Shown here: one piece after another, positions 6,341 to 40,725 of the stretch
Layout of the letters: the number at the start of each line of letters is the position of its first letter
How positions within the stretch are numbered: the first letter of the stretch is position 1
Assembly: GCA_025062095.1 (NCBI GenBank)
Contig: JANXAZ010000004.1
Coordinates: forward strand, 1-64,000
Direction of reading: 5' to 3'
DNA from: Geminicoccaceae bacterium
GTDB taxonomy: Bacteria > Pseudomonadota > Alphaproteobacteria > Geminicoccales > Geminicoccaceae
Length of the DNA stretch: 64,000 nt
Made by a program: the position numbers and the translations under genes
Notes under the pieces: model-generated
Told to the model about the DNA's origin: nothing
The model's input: the letters and a program-made list of their open reading frames with translations, nothing else
Databases searched by the model: none

Positions 6341-6847
6341 GTGCCGATGACGCCCGAAGCGTTGCTCGCTTTTCTGGCCGAGCTCGGAATCGAGACGACC
6401 ACGCATCGACACCCGCCGGTCTTCACCGTCGAGGAGGCGGCCCGCTACACGGCGCATCTGCCCGGAGGGCACACGAAGAACCTTTTCTTGGAGGACCGTT
6501 CGGGCAAGCTGTGGCTGGTGTCCTGCCTGGATTCGCAGGTTCTGCGCATCAACGGGCTCGCCCGTCTGCTCGACGCTCCGCGGATGAGCTTCGGCAAGCC
6601 CGAGCGGCTGCGCGAGGCTCTCGGGGTGGAACCGGGGTCGGTGACCCCTTTCGCTCTCGTCAACGACCGCGCCCGGCGCGTGCAGCCGGTGTGGGACGCG
6701 AAGATGCTCGCCCTGCCGCTTCTCAATTTCCATCCCCTCGTCAACACCATGACCACGGCGATCACGCCTTCGGGTCTGCGCCGTTTCGTCGAGGCGACGG
6801 GCCACGTTCCGGTCGAGCTCGACCTCGACGCCACGCTCGACGCTTGA
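6341..6847 (+). CDS. YbaK/ProX-type aminoacyl-tRNA deacylase
   Basis: A 168-residue protein of the YbaK/INS domain family that hydrolyses mischarged aminoacyl-tRNA (Ala- or Cys-tRNA-Pro) in trans. Family features are FTVEEAARYTAHLPGGHTKNLFL (residues ~29-51, with the conserved Lys), SCLDSQVLRINGLARLL, LGVEPGSVTPFAL and FHPLVNTMTTAI (substrate-pocket segments). GTG 6341 is preferred because GGAGGG (6328-6333) sits 7 nt upstream; the ATG at 6347 would leave 13 nt. Closest by pattern to prolyl-tRNA editing protein ProX. Coupling to the tRNA-Gly gene that follows is not implied. Confidence 0.85.
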   Translation: MPMTPEALLAFLAELGIETTTHRHPPVFTVEEAARYTAHLPGGHTKNLFLEDRSGKLWLVSCLDSQVLRINGLARLLDAPRMSFGKPERLREALGVEPGSVTPFALVNDRARRVQPVWDAKMLALPLLNFHPLVNTMTTAITPSGLRRFVEATGHVPVELDLDATLDA

Positions 6848-12265: not shown

Positions 12266-13209
12266 GAGGAATCTCCGCTCGTCTCGAGCCCGAGCATCAG
12301 GTGCAGGTTCTGCACGGCGGCACCCGAGGCGCCTTTTCCCAGATTGTCGAGACGCGCCACGAGGACAGCCTGACGACGTGCCTCGTTTCCGAACACGAAG
12401 AGTTCGACCTCGTCCCGCCCGGCGAGGGCCGTGGCATCCAGACGCTCGATCCGCTGATCGCTCGAAGATGTCGGCATCACGCGAACGAACCGCTCCCCAC
12501 GGTAACGTTCGGCCAGTACCGCCTCGAGGTCGCGCGCGCGGGGGCGCATCGGAAGCGCATCGAGATGCAGCGGTACGCACACCAGCATTCCCTGCCGGAA
12601 ATTCCCGACCGAAGGAACGAAGATCGGCCGACGCTCGAGCCTCGCCCACTTCTCGATCTCGGGCAGATGTTTGTGCTCGAGCCCCAAGGCGTACAGCTCG
12701 AAAGGCGGAGCACTCCCTCGCTCGTACGCTTCGATCATGCTCCGTCCGCCTCCCGAATAGCCCGAGACGGCGTTGATCGCGAGCGGGAAGTCGGGAGGCA
12801 GAAGGCCGGCATCGACGAGCGGCCGCAGCAAAAGGATCGCACCCGTCGGATAGCAGCCGGGGTTCGCGACGCGCCGTGCGCGAGCGATGGCTTCGCGCTG
12901 CCCGGGGGCCAGCTCGGGCAGGCCGTACACCCAGCCGGGAGCCGTGCGGTGCGCCGTGCTGGCATCCAGGATCCGCGGACTCCTTTCACCCAGCTCCGCG
13001 GCGAGCGCGACCGTCTCGCGCGCGGCTTCGTCGGGTAGGCACAGGACGGCGACGTCGACGGTGGCGAGGAGGGCTCTTTTGGCCTCGGGATCCTTGCGCC
13101 GCGCGGGATCGACGGCGACGAGCTCGATCGCCTCGAGGGGCGCCAAGCGCTCTCGGATCCCGAGACCGGTCGTACCGGCTTCTCCGTCGATGAAGACCCT
13201 GGCGCGCAT
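12262..13209 (-). CDS. argC: N-acetyl-gamma-glutamyl-phosphate reductase, type 2
   Basis: A 315-residue ArgC of the short (type 2) class. It reduces N-acetylglutamyl phosphate to the semialdehyde with NADPH in arginine synthesis. The N terminus VFIDGEAGTTGLGIRERL contains the NADP-binding loop, and the catalytic Cys lies in VANPGCYPTGAILLLRPL about residue 115, with SGYSGGGRSMIEAYE and the substrate-binding HKHLPEIE following. The C-terminal segment LDNLGKGASGAAVQNLHLM is diagnostic. Upstream (13210-13313) is a divergent spacer shared with the repair helicase. Confidence 0.95.
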   Translation of the reverse strand: MRARVFIDGEAGTTGLGIRERLAPLEAIELVAVDPARRKDPEAKRALLATVDVAVLCLPDEAARETVALAAELGERSPRILDASTAHRTAPGWVYGLPELAPGQREAIARARRVANPGCYPTGAILLLRPLVDAGLLPPDFPLAINAVSGYSGGGRSMIEAYERGSAPPFELYALGLEHKHLPEIEKWARLERRPIFVPSVGNFRQGMLVCVPLHLDALPMRPRARDLEAVLAERYRGERFVRVMPTSSSDQRIERLDATALAGRDEVELFVFGNEARRQAVLVARLDNLGKGASGAAVQNLHLMLGLETSGDSS

Positions 13210-34430: not shown

Positions 34431-34958
34431 ATGACGTTGCGGCATCCGCTCTGGAAGTTCGGGGCCCTGACGGGTCTGATCGGCGTCCTGTGGCTACTGC
34501 TCGACGGGTCCGCTCAAGCACCGGCGACGATCGCGGCCGCACGCGTCCGTCCGGTGCTCGAGCATCGCGCGGGCGAGAACCCGACCATGGCGGCGCTGGC
34601 GGCGATCGCCGGACATCGGGCGGTGCCGCCGCACGAACACTTCTCGGCCGCGATCGAGCGCCCCCTGTTCGCGCCGACCCGCCGCCCTTCCCCGCGCCTC
34701 GCACCCGCGTCGACCGAGCCCGCGAGCGCGAGCCAGCCCTCACCGTCGGAGGCGAGGGGGGAGCGGTTCGCCGTGCGTCTGGTCGGCACGGTGATCCGGC
34801 GCGGCACGGCACACGCTCTTCTCTCGAAAGGCGAAGGCGGTCTGCAATGGGTGGAGCGAGGGGCGATCGTCGAGGGCTGGAAGGTCGTCGACGTCGCTTC
34901 CGATCGACTCGTTCTGGAGCGCGACGGCGAGAGCCGAGAGCTGTACATCTTGCGGTGA
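34431..34958 (+). CDS. gspC: GspC-like T2SS inner-membrane component, PDZ-less
   Basis: A 175-residue protein with one N-terminal transmembrane helix (residues ~12-26), a linker, and a C-terminal small beta domain (about residues 105-172: VRLVGTVIRRGTAHALLSKG) that resembles the homology region (HR domain) of T2SS GspC/PulC. In classical GspC, HR contacts the secretin GspD and a PDZ domain follows; this protein stops after HR. The call rests on domain layout plus position just before gspG, so it could also be classified as a GspN/PilP-like protein. It opens the rightward T2SS run, 57 nt before the gspG start. Confidence 0.7.
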   Translation: MTLRHPLWKFGALTGLIGVLWLLLDGSAQAPATIAAARVRPVLEHRAGENPTMAALAAIAGHRAVPPHEHFSAAIERPLFAPTRRPSPRLAPASTEPASASQPSPSEARGERFAVRLVGTVIRRGTAHALLSKGEGGLQWVERGAIVEGWKVVDVASDRLVLERDGESRELYILR

Positions 34959-35015
34959 AAGCCGGCAGCGTCGGGCTACTCGCGAGCGGCCGGGGTCGTG
35001 CAACGGGACCTGGAA

Positions 35016-35459
35016 ATGGAAACGAACAGAAATTGTCGACGCCGTGCGGGCTCGGCGGGCTTCACGCTCATCGAACTCCTGGTCGTGCTCGTGATCCTCG
35101 GCCTTTTGGCCGCGCTCGTGGGGCCGCGCGTGTTGGGTTATCTCGGCGGAGCCCGGGCGGATGCCGCACGACTCCAGATCCAGAGCCTCGAGCAAGCGCT
35201 CGATCTCTATCGTCTCGATACGGGATCTTACCCTTCGACACAGCAGGGCCTGCAGGCTCTGATCCGCGATCCGGGTGGCGTCCGCGGCTGGCGCGGTCCG
35301 TATCTCGACTCTTCGACCTTGCCGCTCGATCCGTGGGGCCGTCCCTATGTCTATCGTTCGCCCGGCGAGCGGGGGCCTTATGATCTTTTCTCCCTCGGTG
35401 CGGACGGCGCCCCGGGCGGCACGGGCGAGGCGGCAGATGTCACGAGCGGCCGGCGGTGA
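35016..35459 (+). CDS. gspG: T2SS major pseudopilin GspG
   Basis: A 147-residue type IV pilin-like protein. The prepilin leader ends SAG before FTLIELLVVLVILGLLAAL, giving cleavage and N-methylation of Phe by the prepilin peptidase, with Glu at mature position 5. The diagnostic GspG C-terminal calcium loop is present (DLFSLGADGAPGGTGEAAD), along with GWRGPYLD and DPWGRPYVYRSPG. It forms the pseudopilus piston. ATG 35016 gives a 15-residue basic leader; GTG 34998 is an alternative. The gspH start overlaps its 3' end by 23 nt. Confidence 0.95.
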   Translation: METNRNCRRRAGSAGFTLIELLVVLVILGLLAALVGPRVLGYLGGARADAARLQIQSLEQALDLYRLDTGSYPSTQQGLQALIRDPGGVRGWRGPYLDSSTLPLDPWGRPYVYRSPGERGPYDLFSLGADGAPGGTGEAADVTSGRR

Positions 35460-35829
35460 GGCCGGATTCACCTTGCTCGAGCTGCTCGTCGTGGTCGTTC
35501 TCGCGGGTCTCGGGCTCGTGCTCGTCGCCCCGCGCCTCGGACCGCGCGCGAATTCTCTCGAACGGGCAGCGGCCGAGGCGGCGCGGGCGTTGTCCGAGTC
35601 GCGCGAGCGAGCGATCGACCGCGCTCGGATCGAGACGATATTCGGTTCCGCACCCCTCCCCTGGGGCGAGCACGGTGTCGTTCTCGAGAGCGAAGGCCAG
35701 GTCTCGATACGATTTTTTCCCGATGGAACGGCTTCGGGTGGTACGGTCGCGGTGGTGGACGAGAGTGGTCGCCGGATCCGTTTGCGCATCGACCCCCTCA
35801 CCGGGCGGATCGTGCGCGTCCGGAATTGA
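35437..35829 (+). CDS. gspH: T2SS minor pseudopilin GspH
   Basis: A 130-residue protein with leader MSRAAGGEAG followed by FTLLELLVVVVLAGLGLVLV (Glu at mature position 5). The rest is a beta-rich globular domain (SIRFFPDGTASGGTVAV, RIRLRIDPLTGRIVRV) typical of GspH/FimT. It is one of the minor pseudopilins. ATG 35437 lies inside the end of gspG. The stop TGA at 35827-35829 overlaps the probable gspI start. Confidence 0.9.
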   Translation: MSRAAGGEAGFTLLELLVVVVLAGLGLVLVAPRLGPRANSLERAAAEAARALSESRERAIDRARIETIFGSAPLPWGEHGVVLESEGQVSIRFFPDGTASGGTVAVVDESGRRIRLRIDPLTGRIVRVRN

Positions 35830-36208
35830 GCCGAACCGCGACCGCGGTTTCGGTCTCGTCGAGGCTTTGGTCGCCATCGTCGTCCTCGGGATCGCGCTCT
35901 CCGTTGCTTTGCAGACGGCCGGCTCCACCCTCGATCGCGCCGAGCGCGCGCGCCGCGAGCTCGCGATGGCGCGCTTCGCCGAGACCCTGCTCGAGCGAGC
36001 CGGGGTCGACCTCCTTCTCGGAGCGACGAGGATGGAGGGCCAGGAAGGGACGTTTTTCTGGCGGCTGTACCGAGAACGCGAGGATCCGTCCGAGGTCGCG
36101 CGGCGCTCCGGCGGGCCCGTGCTCTGGCGGATCGTGGCCGAGGTCGAAGACCGCGCGCACGGGCGTTCGTTCGCCCTGTCGACGCTGCGCTTCGAGGCTT
36201 CCCGGTGA
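35825..36208 (+). CDS. gspI: T2SS minor pseudopilin GspI, apparent ATT start
   Basis: A 127-residue protein with leader IEPNRDRG and mature start FGLVEALVAIVVLGIALSVA, the GspI pattern (Phe+1, Glu+5), followed by a small globular part. No ATG, GTG or TTG in this frame gives a normal leader. The codon at the natural position is ATT 35825-35827, giving an 8-residue basic leader and overlapping the gspH stop. The nearest conventional option is GTG 35765, which would make a 28-residue leader. The protein identity is firm; the exact start is not. Its stop overlaps the gspJ GTG. Confidence 0.8.
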   Translation: MEPNRDRGFGLVEALVAIVVLGIALSVALQTAGSTLDRAERARRELAMARFAETLLERAGVDLLLGATRMEGQEGTFFWRLYREREDPSEVARRSGGPVLWRIVAEVEDRAHGRSFALSTLRFEASR

Positions 36209-36858
36209 TCGGCGTTCGAGCGCGGGAGCGAGGCCTGACGCTTCTCGAGCTCGTCGTCGCGGTCACGGTTCTCGCGCTCGCCGTCCTCGTCGCCTCCGAT
36301 GGTCTCGCGGTCCTCGGGCGCGCGGCCGAGCGGGAACGGCGCGCGGCCGTGGCACAGGATTCCGAGGAGAGCGCGCTCGAGCTGTTCCGTTCGGAGCTCG
36401 GCCGAGCCCTCCCCCTCGATTGGGGTGTGATCGAGGAGCGACGATCCGCGTTCGTCGGAACGGCCGAGCGCCTGCGCTTCGTGAACGCTCCTCCCGAATA
36501 TCGAGCGCACGGGTCCCTGGACCTTTGGGAGTTCGCGCTCGAAGAAGACGGGAACGGACGGCGTCTGGTCGCCCGACGGGCACCGCTCGTCCGAGACGGT
36601 ACGGGGTTCGCACGCCTCGACGAAGCCGAGCCCGTGGTACTCGCTCGCTTCGACCGTCCTCTCGGCTTCGCCTATTGGGGCCGGCCGCGCGACGAGCGCG
36701 AGGCGCGTTGGTGGCCCGATTGGCCGCCCGGGGAGCGTTTGCCGCTCGCCGTGCGGCTCGGGGCCGAAGACGGTCGGCCGCCGGCGACGGTCGTGCGGCT
36801 CGCGATCGACTGGCCCAGGACGTGCCTCGGCCGACGAAGGGGAAGGGGGTGCGAGTGA
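36205..36858 (+). CDS. gspJ: T2SS minor pseudopilin GspJ
   Basis: A 217-residue protein with leader MIGVRARERG and hydrophobic stretch LTLLELVVAVTVLALAVLV (Glu+5), then a large beta-rich domain with EEDGNGRRLVARRAPLVRD, the usual GspJ size. It forms the pseudopilus tip complex with GspH, I and K. The first mature residue is Leu rather than Phe. GTG 36205 overlaps the gspI stop (GTGA). Confidence 0.9.
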   Translation: MIGVRARERGLTLLELVVAVTVLALAVLVASDGLAVLGRAAERERRAAVAQDSEESALELFRSELGRALPLDWGVIEERRSAFVGTAERLRFVNAPPEYRAHGSLDLWEFALEEDGNGRRLVARRAPLVRDGTGFARLDEAEPVVLARFDRPLGFAYWGRPRDEREARWWPDWPPGERLPLAVRLGAEDGRPPATVVRLAIDWPRTCLGRRRGRGCE

Positions 36859-37745
36859 GGGGCGCCGCGCGCGTGCGGGCGCAGGCGGGGAGCGCCTTCC
36901 TTTTGGCGCTCTGGTTCGCCGCGGCAGCGAGCGGCCTCGCTCTGGCTCTTCTGGACACGAGCCGAGAGGCGGTTCCGGAAGCGCGGCGTCAGATCGATTC
37001 GATCCGCCTGCGAGCCGCGCTATCTTCGGCGGTGCACATTGTTGCCGCGCGCTTGTCGTCGGAGAAGCTCGAGCTGCGCGCCGGGACGGCGGTTCTCGAG
37101 CTCGCGCACGAGGACATCGCTGTTTCCGTGCGCGTGCGCGCGGAAAGCGGCCTCGTCGACGTCGCCGCCGCTTCGCCCGGGCTCGTGCAGCGTTTGGCCG
37201 AGCTGGTCGGGTTCGATCGGGAGCGCGCGCGGGCGCTCGTCGACGACATCGAGCGACGGAGGACGGGAACGCGGAGCGGCGATCCGCCCGAGAACCGGGC
37301 TCCGCAAGCGTTCCGAGAGCTGCGGCCGCCGGATCGGCCCGGCCTCGATCATCCGATCGAAGTGGTGGAGGCGGCGGGAGGCGGATCCGGACCGTCGGCC
37401 GGGCCGTGGGACCGGTTCTTCGCGTTCTTGACGCTCGGCACCGATCTTCCCGAACCCGTGGTCGAGCTCGCTCCGCGCGAGGTGCGCATCGCTCTGGCCG
37501 GAACCAAAGACGACCGTTCGCGGCGTTCGTCTCCCCAGGCGGAGGTGGAGCCGGTGAGCGTCCGGCGACGCGATCCCAACGATCTCTATCGGCTCGAGAT
37601 CCTCGCCCGCACCCCCGGGGAGCGAATGGCGGCGCGACGCGTCGTCCTCGCTCTGCGTCCCGGCGATATCCGCCCGGTGCGGATCGTGGACTGGTCGGGT
37701 CCCCTTGCCGTAGGAGGTTCCTCCGAGCCGGACGAGAAGTCCTGA
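36855..37745 (+). CDS. gspK: T2SS minor pseudopilin GspK
   Basis: A 296-residue protein, the largest minor pseudopilin. The N terminus VRGAARVRAQAG is followed by the hydrophobic SAFLLALWFAAAASGLALAL, resembling GspK (which carries a Leu-Trp after a short run and may lack Glu+5). A large domain with VDVAAASPGLVQRLAELVGFDRERA (GspK SAM-like helical domain) follows. GTG 36855 overlaps the gspJ stop (GTGA); a second in-frame GTG at 36849 is possible. It caps the pseudopilus. Confidence 0.85.
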   Translation: MRGAARVRAQAGSAFLLALWFAAAASGLALALLDTSREAVPEARRQIDSIRLRAALSSAVHIVAARLSSEKLELRAGTAVLELAHEDIAVSVRVRAESGLVDVAAASPGLVQRLAELVGFDRERARALVDDIERRRTGTRSGDPPENRAPQAFRELRPPDRPGLDHPIEVVEAAGGGSGPSAGPWDRFFAFLTLGTDLPEPVVELAPREVRIALAGTKDDRSRRSSPQAEVEPVSVRRRDPNDLYRLEILARTPGERMAARRVVLALRPGDIRPVRIVDWSGPLAVGGSSEPDEKS

Positions 37746-37746
37746 C

Positions 37747-38877
37747 GTGTCTACACTCCCGACCAAGTCCTCGAGCGGGCGCGGGTTCGTGTCCTGGTGG
37801 CTGGACGAGCTCGAGGGAATCTTCCGATGGCGGAGACGACGGGGTCGCTTCGCCAAGCCGCGTTTTTGTCTATTTTATCGCGAAGGGCGGGTGCGGGCCT
37901 TCGAACTCGGGCGCGGCCGACCGCGCGAGATCGGCGGCTTTACGCTCGAGCCGGCGCGAGACGGCGCGACGCGTCCGGCCCCTGCGTCCCGGTCGCTTTC
38001 CGCCGAAGAGGTGTGCGCTCGCCTGCGACGCCGGGGGCCGGTGATGGTGCGCTTCGCGCCCGACCACGGGGTCGTCGTGCGCGATGTCCTTCCAGTGGCG
38101 AACGAGGACGAAGTCCGAGAGATCCTCGCCCATCGTCTCGACGCGCTCACGCCCTGGAGCGCGGATAAGGCCGTCTTCGACTTCGCGATATCCGCTCTCT
38201 TGCCCGACGGTCGGCTGGAAGTCGTGGTCGCCGCCGTGCCTCGGCCCCTCGTCGACCGCGTCGTGGAACAGCTCGAACGATTGGGTTTGACCGTCGGGCC
38301 CATCGATGTGGCGGATCTGGAAGAATCCGTGCCGGGGCGGTTTCTGTTGCGGCGCGGCAGAAGCGCCGACGGCGGTCGCTTGTCGGCGGTGGTCGCGGCG
38401 ATCACGCTCGGTGGCGCCTCGGCTCTGGGCATCGCTTGGGCCGTCTCGGAGATCCACGCTCGCGGCGTGGTGCTGGCCGACCGCGAGCGAACGGTAGCGG
38501 CGTTGAGCGCGCGTTTGGCCGACATGCCCGAGCTCCGGCGTCGGCTCGAGGAACTGCGTGCCGAACTCGACCTTTTGGCCGGGCGCGTGCGCTCCGCGCC
38601 TTCGACGTTGACGATCATCGAGGAGCTCAGCCGAATCCTGCCCGACGAGGTGTTCCTCCAACGTCTGGAGCTCCATCGGGACCGGCTCGTGATCGCGGGT
38701 TACGCGACCGAGGCGGCGGGCCTCGTGCCGTTGCTTGAGGCCGCGGCCGCTTTCCAAGACGTCCGCTTCGAGGCCCCGAGCACGAAGGCCGCGCTCGACG
38801 GCCGGTCGGGCAGGCGCGAAGTCGAACGTTTCGTCCTGTCGGCTCGGCTCGGAAATGTGGTGCGAGGTGGATCGTGA
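37747..38877 (+). CDS. gspL: T2SS inner-membrane platform protein GspL (PilM/PilN-like)
   Basis: A 376-residue protein. The N-terminal cytoplasmic half (residues ~35-200) is a divergent actin-like domain as in GspL/PilM, with EILAHRLDALTPWSADKAVFDF containing the typical HRLDALTPW-like patch. A transmembrane helix follows (about residues 218-236), then a coiled coil and a PilN-like periplasmic domain (TLTIIEELSRILPDEVFLQRLELH). GspL links GspE to the pseudopilus platform. The start is a GTG at 37747, 2 nt after the gspK stop. Confidence 0.85.
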   Translation: MSTLPTKSSSGRGFVSWWLDELEGIFRWRRRRGRFAKPRFCLFYREGRVRAFELGRGRPREIGGFTLEPARDGATRPAPASRSLSAEEVCARLRRRGPVMVRFAPDHGVVVRDVLPVANEDEVREILAHRLDALTPWSADKAVFDFAISALLPDGRLEVVVAAVPRPLVDRVVEQLERLGLTVGPIDVADLEESVPGRFLLRRGRSADGGRLSAVVAAITLGGASALGIAWAVSEIHARGVVLADRERTVAALSARLADMPELRRRLEELRAELDLLAGRVRSAPSTLTIIEELSRILPDEVFLQRLELHRDRLVIAGYATEAAGLVPLLEAAAAFQDVRFEAPSTKAALDGRSGRREVERFVLSARLGNVVRGGS

Positions 38878-39512
38878 GGTCGCCTCCGCCGATGTTGCGA
38901 CGGAGTGCCGCGCTCGCGCTTCTCTTCTTGCTCGTGGCGGCTCTGGGGATGCTCGTTTGGCTTCCGCTGCATTGGATCGCTTGGCAGGATGCGCGATTGG
39001 CCCGGCTCGACGAGGAAATCGCGGAATTGCAGCGACGCTTGGCCGAGCGCGAGGAGATCCTGGCCGAGCGGCGTCTGATCGAACGCGCGCTCGCCGAGCC
39101 GGGCTTGATCCTCCGGGCGGCGACACCCGCTCTGGCCGCGGCGGAACTTCAAGGTACGGTGACGACCATGGTGCGCGAGCGCGGCGGGCAGATCGCCAGC
39201 GTTCACGTGCTGGAGCCCGTCGAACTCGGGGCGTTCACCGAAGTCGGCTTGCGGATCGTCCTGGAAGCCGACATGGAGGGCTTGGTCGGGCTCCTGCACG
39301 CGGTGGAAACGAGCCGGCCGCTCGTTCTCGTCCGTCGGCTCGAGCTCGATGCCGAAGACCCGCCGGCCGACGGAGGCCCCCCGCGCCTGCGGGCGGTCGT
39401 AGAATTGGCCGGGTTGAACCAACGTCCACGAGGCCGTTTTCGCTCGCAGAGGAGCCGCGGCCGCACGGGTCGGGGAACGGAAGGGCGAGGAGGCGGAGGA
39501 TGGGCGAGGTGA
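38874..39512 (+). CDS. gspM: T2SS inner-membrane protein GspM (type b)
   Basis: A 212-residue bitopic protein with a transmembrane helix at residues ~12-32 (AALALLFLLVAALGMLVWLPL), a coiled coil (ARLARLDEEIAELQRRLAER) and a small periplasmic ferredoxin-like domain (QGTVTTMVRERGGQIASV), as in the GspM type b family. The extreme C terminus is Arg/Gly-rich. GspM partners GspL. GTG 38874 overlaps the gspL stop (GTGA). Confidence 0.85.
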   Translation: MRSPPPMLRRSAALALLFLLVAALGMLVWLPLHWIAWQDARLARLDEEIAELQRRLAEREEILAERRLIERALAEPGLILRAATPALAAAELQGTVTTMVRERGGQIASVHVLEPVELGAFTEVGLRIVLEADMEGLVGLLHAVETSRPLVLVRRLELDAEDPPADGGPPRLRAVVELAGLNQRPRGRFRSQRSRGRTGRGTEGRGGGGWAR

Positions 39513-39865
39513 CCTATCGGACGGGTGACAGCGACGAGCGACCTTGGGGGCGTTGGCGGGTGCTCGACGTCGACCAGGGTTTCGTCGTCAAACGGATCAC
39601 CGTGGATCCGGGCGGGATCCTCTCGCTTCAATTCCATCGGTACCGCGCCGAGCACTGGTTCATCCTGCGCGGTCGGGCACGGGTGACTTTGGGCGAGCGC
39701 GAGTTCGAGCTGCGGGCGGGCGAAGCGGTCGATGTTCCGGTCGGAACCCCGCACCGGGTGGCGAACCCGGGCGAGGAGACCCTCGAGTTTGTCGAAGTGC
39801 AACACGGCGAACGGCTCGACGAGGCCGACATCGTGCGTTTGGACGATCGTTACGGCCGTCTCTGA
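39500..39865 (+). CDS. Single-domain cupin, ManC (mannose-6-phosphate isomerase type II) C-terminal type
   Basis: A 121-residue cupin. WGRWRVLD, FVVKRITVDPGGILSLQFH, HRYRAEHWFILRGRARVTLG and DVPVGTPHRVANPGEE match the C-terminal isomerase domain of ManC/WbpW (His residues for the metal in FHRYRAEHW and TPHRVAN). Stand-alone copies are common in alphaproteobacteria. It may isomerise mannose-6-phosphate; the nucleotidyltransferase half is absent. ATG 39500 lies inside the gspM 3' end (13-nt overlap) after GGCGGAGGA, so it is co-translated with the T2SS genes. Confidence 0.88.
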   Translation: MGEVTYRTGDSDERPWGRWRVLDVDQGFVVKRITVDPGGILSLQFHRYRAEHWFILRGRARVTLGEREFELRAGEAVDVPVGTPHRVANPGEETLEFVEVQHGERLDEADIVRLDDRYGRL

Positions 39866-39978: not shown

Positions 39979-40725
39979 ATGGCCAGAGTGGTTTTGGTGA
40001 CCGGTGGCTCGCGCGGCATCGGTGCGGCGGTGTGCAGGCTCGCGGCGCGCGACGGCTGGGACGTCGCCGTCGCTTATCGGGAGCGCGAGGCGGCGGCCGA
40101 GCGCGTCGCCGAAGACGTCCGCGCCTATGGTCGACGCGCGATCACGATCCGTTGCGACATCACCGATCCGCGCGCCGTGTGCGCCGCCTTCGACCGCGCC
40201 GCGGAAGAACTCGGCTACGTCGAAGCTCTGGTGAGCAACGCCGGGGTCATTCACAAAGCGGCACCGCTCGCGTGCATCCCGATCGAGGAGATCCGGCGAA
40301 TTATCGAAACCGATCTGCTCGCGCACATCATCTGCAATCGCGAGGCGGTACGTCGCATGGCGCGCTCGCGTGGCGGTCGTGGCGGGGTGATCGTCAATAT
40401 TTCGTCGATGGCCACGGAACTCAAAGGAGCCGGAGGATTCGTGCCCTATGCGGCGGCCAAGGCGGGGATCGACCTGTTGACGGAGGGCCTCGGAAAAGAA
40501 GTCGCATCCGAAGGGATCCGGGTCAACGGTGTGCGACCCGGGCTCATCGATACGGACATGCAGCTCGACACGGGGGTGCCCGAGCGCATTCAACGTTTCG
40601 GCCCGACCGTGCCGCTCGGCCGAGCCGGTCGGCCCGAGGAGGTCGCCGAAGCCGTCGTGTGGCTGCTCTCGGACAAGGCGAGCTACGTCGCGGCCACGAT
40701 CTTCAACGTGAGCGGAGCCCGCTGA
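39979..40725 (+). CDS. SDR-family oxidoreductase (FabG-like)
   Basis: A 248-residue classical short-chain dehydrogenase. TGGSRGIG at residues 8-15 binds the cofactor, NAGVIHKA (NNAG position), Ser in NISSMA and YAAAKAG (Tyr/Lys) about residue 157 form the catalytic set, and VRPGLIDTDM follows. The pattern fits 3-ketoacyl-ACP reductase-like SDRs; substrate unknown. ATG 39979 has AGGAGG 8-13 nt upstream. It stands alone, 113 nt after the cupin, and 7 nt before the convergent cytochrome c. Confidence 0.88.
   Translation: MARVVLVTGGSRGIGAAVCRLAARDGWDVAVAYREREAAAERVAEDVRAYGRRAITIRCDITDPRAVCAAFDRAAEELGYVEALVSNAGVIHKAAPLACIPIEEIRRIIETDLLAHIICNREAVRRMARSRGGRGGVIVNISSMATELKGAGGFVPYAAAKAGIDLLTEGLGKEVASEGIRVNGVRPGLIDTDMQLDTGVPERIQRFGPTVPLGRAGRPEEVAEAVVWLLSDKASYVAATIFNVSGAR

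Follow-up and report, generated by a model that had tools for sequence, protein, structure and literature searches.

The eight-gene operon at 34431-39512 of the window (the 64,000-nucleotide stretch of a Geminicoccaceae genome, G000, that was analyzed here) is part of a type II secretion system (T2SS) that we take to be complete and Xps-like, with gspD, gspE-gspF, and gspO at three other chromosomal places; we put the probability of this reading at about 0.93. The first-pass annotation of the window had reasoned that, with the secretin, ATPase, and inner-membrane F genes missing, the system must be either split across loci or incomplete. The split is borne out by a gspD on contig C77, gspE-gspF on C22, and a prepilin peptidase gene on C90, and the presence of D, E, F, and O in the same genome means that the gene set is not an incomplete one.

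The window operon and the remaining components

The genes run gspC-G-H-I-J-K-L-M, each on the + strand and either overlapping the next or separated from it by a short gap, in the order and tight packing originally described for them. The major pseudopilin gspG (34998..35459; PF08334, 140.9 bits; TIGR01710, 165.5 bits against a cut-off of 88.85) and the XpsM-type gspM (38874..39512; NF040576 GspM_XpsM, 108.8 bits against 60; PF10741, 66.7 bits against 21.7) are recovered above their thresholds. The T2SS family match of gspC (34431..34958) falls below cut-off, and gspL (37747..38877) matches PilN (PF05137, E 1.1e-11) and, weakly, PilM. Among the minor pseudopilins, gspH (35437..35829) is called by gene order and family profile, with sub-threshold matches to PF12019 (E 0.003) and TIGR01708 (E 5e-7), gspI (about 35825-36208) by its prepilin motif (PF07963, E 1.8e-7), and gspJ (36205..36858) by family profile and a sub-threshold match to NF006453, the protein J family (E 9e-14). 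The tip pseudopilin gspK (about 36849..37745) is assigned from its place in the operon and a family profile common to its relatives, with no curated family above cut-off (GspK itself only at E 0.33). The starts of gspH, gspI, and gspK, like those of gspD and gspE below, are inferred: that of gspH is the ATG preceding the GFTLLELL motif, and inspection of the gspI frame leaves an uncertain choice between an ATT at 35825 and in-frame GTG or ATG codons at least 60 bases upstream, no in-frame ATG, GTG, or TTG being found from the GTG at 35765 to the prepilin motif. The ATT is the nearest candidate and overlaps the gspH stop.

No gspD, gspE, or gspF occurs within the 34431-39512 cluster, as first reported. 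Upstream of gspC lies an RraA-like gene on the opposite strand, and gspM is followed, with a 13-base overlap, by a cupin gene of the MannoseP_isomer family (39500..39865, + strand; PF01050, 113.5 bits), which is included in the segment ending at 39865. These flanking genes indicate that D, E, and F do not adjoin the operon and dispose of the idea that they might sit directly upstream. An SDR gene (39979-40725) comes after the cupin gene, downstream of the C-M block; the same cupin-SDR pair follows the C-M block in loci of genera g9, g10, and g16 (L037, L038, L039, and L041), and the cupin occurs there without the SDR in L040 and L042. A related-locus search with GspM alone as the query returned no relatives.

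A profile search of the genome (3.30 Mb in 143 contigs, 99.57% complete) finds secretins and PF00437 ATPases, two of each, along with four PF00482 matches that fall at two places. The gspD gene is on C77, running from an ATG at about 10493 to a stop at 12955, with matches to the secretin domain (PF00263, 165 bits), the N0 domain (PF21305, 48.4 bits), and the T2SS equivalog TIGR02517 (451 bits against 351.35); the profile query began at an internal codon (L009:6548), 18 codons past the likely ATG at 6494, and the matches lie downstream of that point. The gspE-gspF pair occupies about 7397-10335 of C22, with PF00437 at 438 bits and PF00482 matched twice above cut-off; the best NCBIfam matches of both products are to T2SS families, below the equivalog cut-offs (593.8 against 630.25 for GspE and 331.3 against 424 for GspF). 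The prepilin peptidase gene gspO (C90, 6343-7110, - strand) encodes 255 residues with paired Cys motifs and a GLGDAK motif and matches PF06750 at 65.4 bits against 23, with no NCBIfam family matched; it is preceded by a long putA-like gene, which we take to be putA. The second secretin and ATPase are clustered with two F-like genes (C33, 85918-91755; L011), probably as a Tad pilus system, for which we presume from the gene order that the PF00437 ATPase is CpaF. Many genomes of the family, including ones without a T2SS, have secretin and ATPase matches like those of this cluster. A consensus lipobox is present in 17 of the 19 GspD loci among those numbered up to L072, and absent from the gspD of the window genome (L009; CAGC, with position -3 off consensus) and from L053; the secretin is thus likely a lipoprotein across the family, and we are unsure that it is one in the window genome.

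These loci bear directly on whether the operon is the remnant of an incomplete or decaying T2SS devoid of a working secretin or motor. Such a reading would account for the lack of D, E, and F in the window, and some genera of the family indeed have no T2SS at all; however, the D, E, F, and O genes of this genome are present, free of internal stops, and conserved in the genus, which refutes it for gene content and leaves it very improbable overall. By analogy with what is known of T2SSs, GspO would mature the pseudopilins, GspE together with GspF, GspL, and GspM would drive their assembly, and the HR domain of GspC would hold the N0 domain of GspD, through which folded periplasmic proteins would exit.

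GspC and GspL

GspC was first described as a 175-residue protein with only a transmembrane helix and an HR-like domain, and the AlphaFold2 model (mean pLDDT 76.9) agrees: a membrane helix at residues 7-25 is followed by a low-confidence linker and a β domain at about 112-175 (pLDDT mostly >90). The best structural matches of this model in VIA-align are the GspC HR domain (3oss_C; Z 10.6, 1.6 Å over 61 residues) and PilP (Z 10.2), and the HR model also matches Legionella LspC (7oio; Z 7.3). As the chain ends with the HR domain, the protein has no PDZ domain. None of the 39 GspC proteins of the Xps-like branch matches a PDZ family, but this is weak by itself, since GspC PDZ domains may go undetected by Pfam (PMC6411480), and the argument rests on where the chain ends.

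The GspL model (mean pLDDT 84.1) comprises an actin-like cytoplasmic domain, a membrane helix, and a periplasmic ferredoxin-like domain. Its closest structures are those of GspL proteins, namely cytoplasmic GspL (4pht_Y; Z 11.9, 3.3 Å over 148 residues) and the periplasmic domain of PulL (5hl8_A; Z 9.5, 2.1 Å over 74 residues), with PilM ranking after them. The PilM/PilN appearance noticed at first pass is therefore genuine, but it is to be expected rather than particular to this locus, since 39 of 40 GspL proteins of the Xps-like branch match PilN and 23 of 40 match PilM_2; a special PilM/PilN fusion is accordingly rejected. A PDZ-less GspC together with a PilM/PilN-like GspL is the normal condition of the Xps-like T2SS branch, which spans Alpha- and Gammaproteobacteria.

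The same resemblances could be read as signs that the operon builds a type IVa pilus, or a pseudopilus machine of some other kind, instead of serving secretion, given that the best profile matches of GspL are PilN and PilM and that the HR domain of GspC matches PilP as well. Against this, GspD, GspG, and GspM exceed T2SS equivalog cut-offs, the domains of GspL match GspL structures first, and a PilT-like retraction ATPase is lacking: none is found in the genome, whose PF00437 proteins are GspE and the C33 cluster ATPase only. We consequently regard a pilus as highly unlikely and retain the secretion system.

Dispersal of the genes in the genus and the family

In a member of the window genus assembled as one contig of 3,762,466 bases (G022), E lies at 740,323, L at 1,613,621, O at 2,574,875, and D at 3,129,659, such that the EF, C-M, O, and D loci are more than 0.5 Mb apart and the split is not an effect of assembly. 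Fragmentation of the metagenome assembly, suggested by the 143 contigs, has hardly any chance of explaining the split, for other genes bound the C-M operon at either end, the remaining loci are internal to their contigs, and the four loci are far apart in the single-contig genome too. The neighbors around each locus are the same in the members of the genus examined: an RraA-like gene, C-M, cupin, and SDR for the window operon; ACAD-APH-ORF120-D-(CBS)-tig-clpP for gspD; a set of its own for EF; and the putA-like gene before gspO. Identity between the window genome and another member (G023) is 54% for L, 80% for E, and 83% for D.

The presence or absence of four markers, namely L, E (E <1e-100), D (E <1e-50), and O, was recorded for 31 genomes of the order, all from one family, with absence calls limited by the completeness of the drafts. 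All four are present in 16 genomes, none in 10, and a part in five (G007 with LE, G013 with LED, G016 with LDO, G020 with ED, and G021 with LEO); the last are 5 of the 21 genomes with any marker, each wanting one or two of the four. Four of these partial genomes are estimated to be 87-95% complete, and the other is 90% complete with 8% contamination; real marker loss may have occurred in one or two of the five. Among the 22 genomes that are at least 90% complete with at most 5% contamination, 12 have all four markers, 8 have none, and 2 are partial. L and O, for example, are found together in 18 of the 31 genomes and are both absent from 11, and Fisher tests of the six marker pairs give p values between 6e-5 and 9e-7, with related genomes counted as independent. 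This co-occurrence speaks for the four loci serving one machine.

The arrangement of the genes varies within the family. Single clusters occur as EFCGHIJKLMD (G017 and G018) or CGHIJKLMDEF (G010). Four genomes (G003, G015, G028, and G030) have EFCGHIJKLM with D elsewhere, and G029 is similar, but with no C called. In G005, EF and D share a locus away from GHIJKLMC, and G004 likewise has EF and D together, with I-M on a short contig. C-M, EF, and D are all apart in G013, G014, and the window genus. The gspO gene adjoins gspD in 12 of 17 genomes having both, and is apart from it in the window genus (four genomes) and G014. Outside the family, the 68 GspD loci (L085-L152) include 59 with gspL on the same stretch and 19 with the exact order EFGHIJKLMCD.

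A tree built from the system's own genes (E, D, L, G, and M), some deep branchings of which are poorly resolved, groups the Geminicoccaceae sequences, with the exception of G019, in a single supported clade. The proposal of a distinct alphaproteobacterial T2SS lineage is thus mildly supported in that such a clade exists, but the clade falls inside known T2SS diversity. The fewest changes on this tree are three for the EF/C-M linkage, two for C-M/D, and two for D/O. The split is most likely derived, with ancestors that had one operon, from which EF, D, and O would have moved out stepwise as the machine was kept; by these counts, EF would have separated from C-M at least three times and O from D twice. 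With two changes for C-M/D, a history in which D returned to the operon in the compact clade costs no more than any other, so that different sequences of the D events are equally parsimonious. The departure of D apparently preceded that of EF, since the gspD of one genome with EF still beside C-M (G003) has the neighbors seen in the window genus. That genome belongs to genus g4, and its gspD (L058) lies beside ORF120-APH-ACAD as in the window genus (L009). Two further genomes carry duplicates: G013 has two gspD-like genes on separate contigs (C206 and C402), and G019, the system of which is outside the family clade, has two gspL-like genes (C62 and C34).

Relation to known systems and the short GspC forms

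The Xanthomonas Xps system is ordered XpsE-F-G-H-I-J-K-L-M-C-D. The window system shares with it the XpsM-type GspM and a PDZ-less, HR-bearing GspC, but its C precedes G rather than D, and D, EF, and O each occupy a locus of their own; having these two proteins and not the single EFGHIJKLMCD cluster, it is Xps-like and not Xps-type. XpsC itself has an HR domain and a helix and no PDZ domain (PMC11981180). The Lsp T2SS of Legionella pneumophila is described as occupying five chromosomal loci, with a short C lacking a known C-terminal domain and a monocistronic lspF (PMC6617341). The system of the window genus is likewise scattered and has a short C, the HR domain of which can be matched to LspC, but it belongs to another lineage and its genes are grouped otherwise. 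In Acinetobacter, the gsp genes form five scattered clusters, and pilD is shared with type IV pili (PMC9952577); the scatter over the genome is comparable, but this lineage too is a different one. A further comparison is with sister Geminicoccaceae (G017, G018, and G010), which have the homologous genes in one cluster.

Searches of one literature collection for Geminicoccaceae or Geminicoccus with a T2SS or secretion system found nothing relevant, and one for split T2SSs in alphaproteobacteria listed nothing on Geminicoccaceae. Scattered T2SSs and a short GspC being already known, the present case adds the Geminicoccaceae as a modest instance of scattered genes, not a new machine. For annotation, it cautions that a T2SS operon is not necessarily broken when D, E, and F are missing from it. 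It also provides one family with repeated, stepwise breakup of an operon of some twelve genes, where relatives with compact, partly split, and fully split arrangements can be compared. The absence of PDZ from GspC across a whole T2SS branch is consistent with branches differing in how they recognize substrates.

The GspC proteins of the same sister genomes are much shorter before the HR domain than that of the window. In a sample of 75 rows, of which two were not measurable and four were duplicates, the distance from the hydrophobic stretch to the HR motif is 11-23 residues in seven of the 69 distinct proteins (L044 [=L082], L047 [=L076], L048 [=L077], L050 [=L084], L049, L088, and L102) and 28-57 in the other 62. 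Several of the seven resemble a signal peptide plus an HR domain and nothing else. These mini-GspC forms occur in G007, G010, and G016-G018, where gspC is beside EF or in a single operon, and, as separate cases, in Azospirillum RU38E and a Roseobacter-like genome. We offer the tentative, and on balance doubtful, suggestion that mini-GspC, if its start is cleaved, might be a free periplasmic HR protein, with the window GspC (helix, linker, and HR) as a middle stage leading to it from a PDZ-bearing GspC; the link from the inner to the outer membrane would then run without a membrane anchor of GspC's own.
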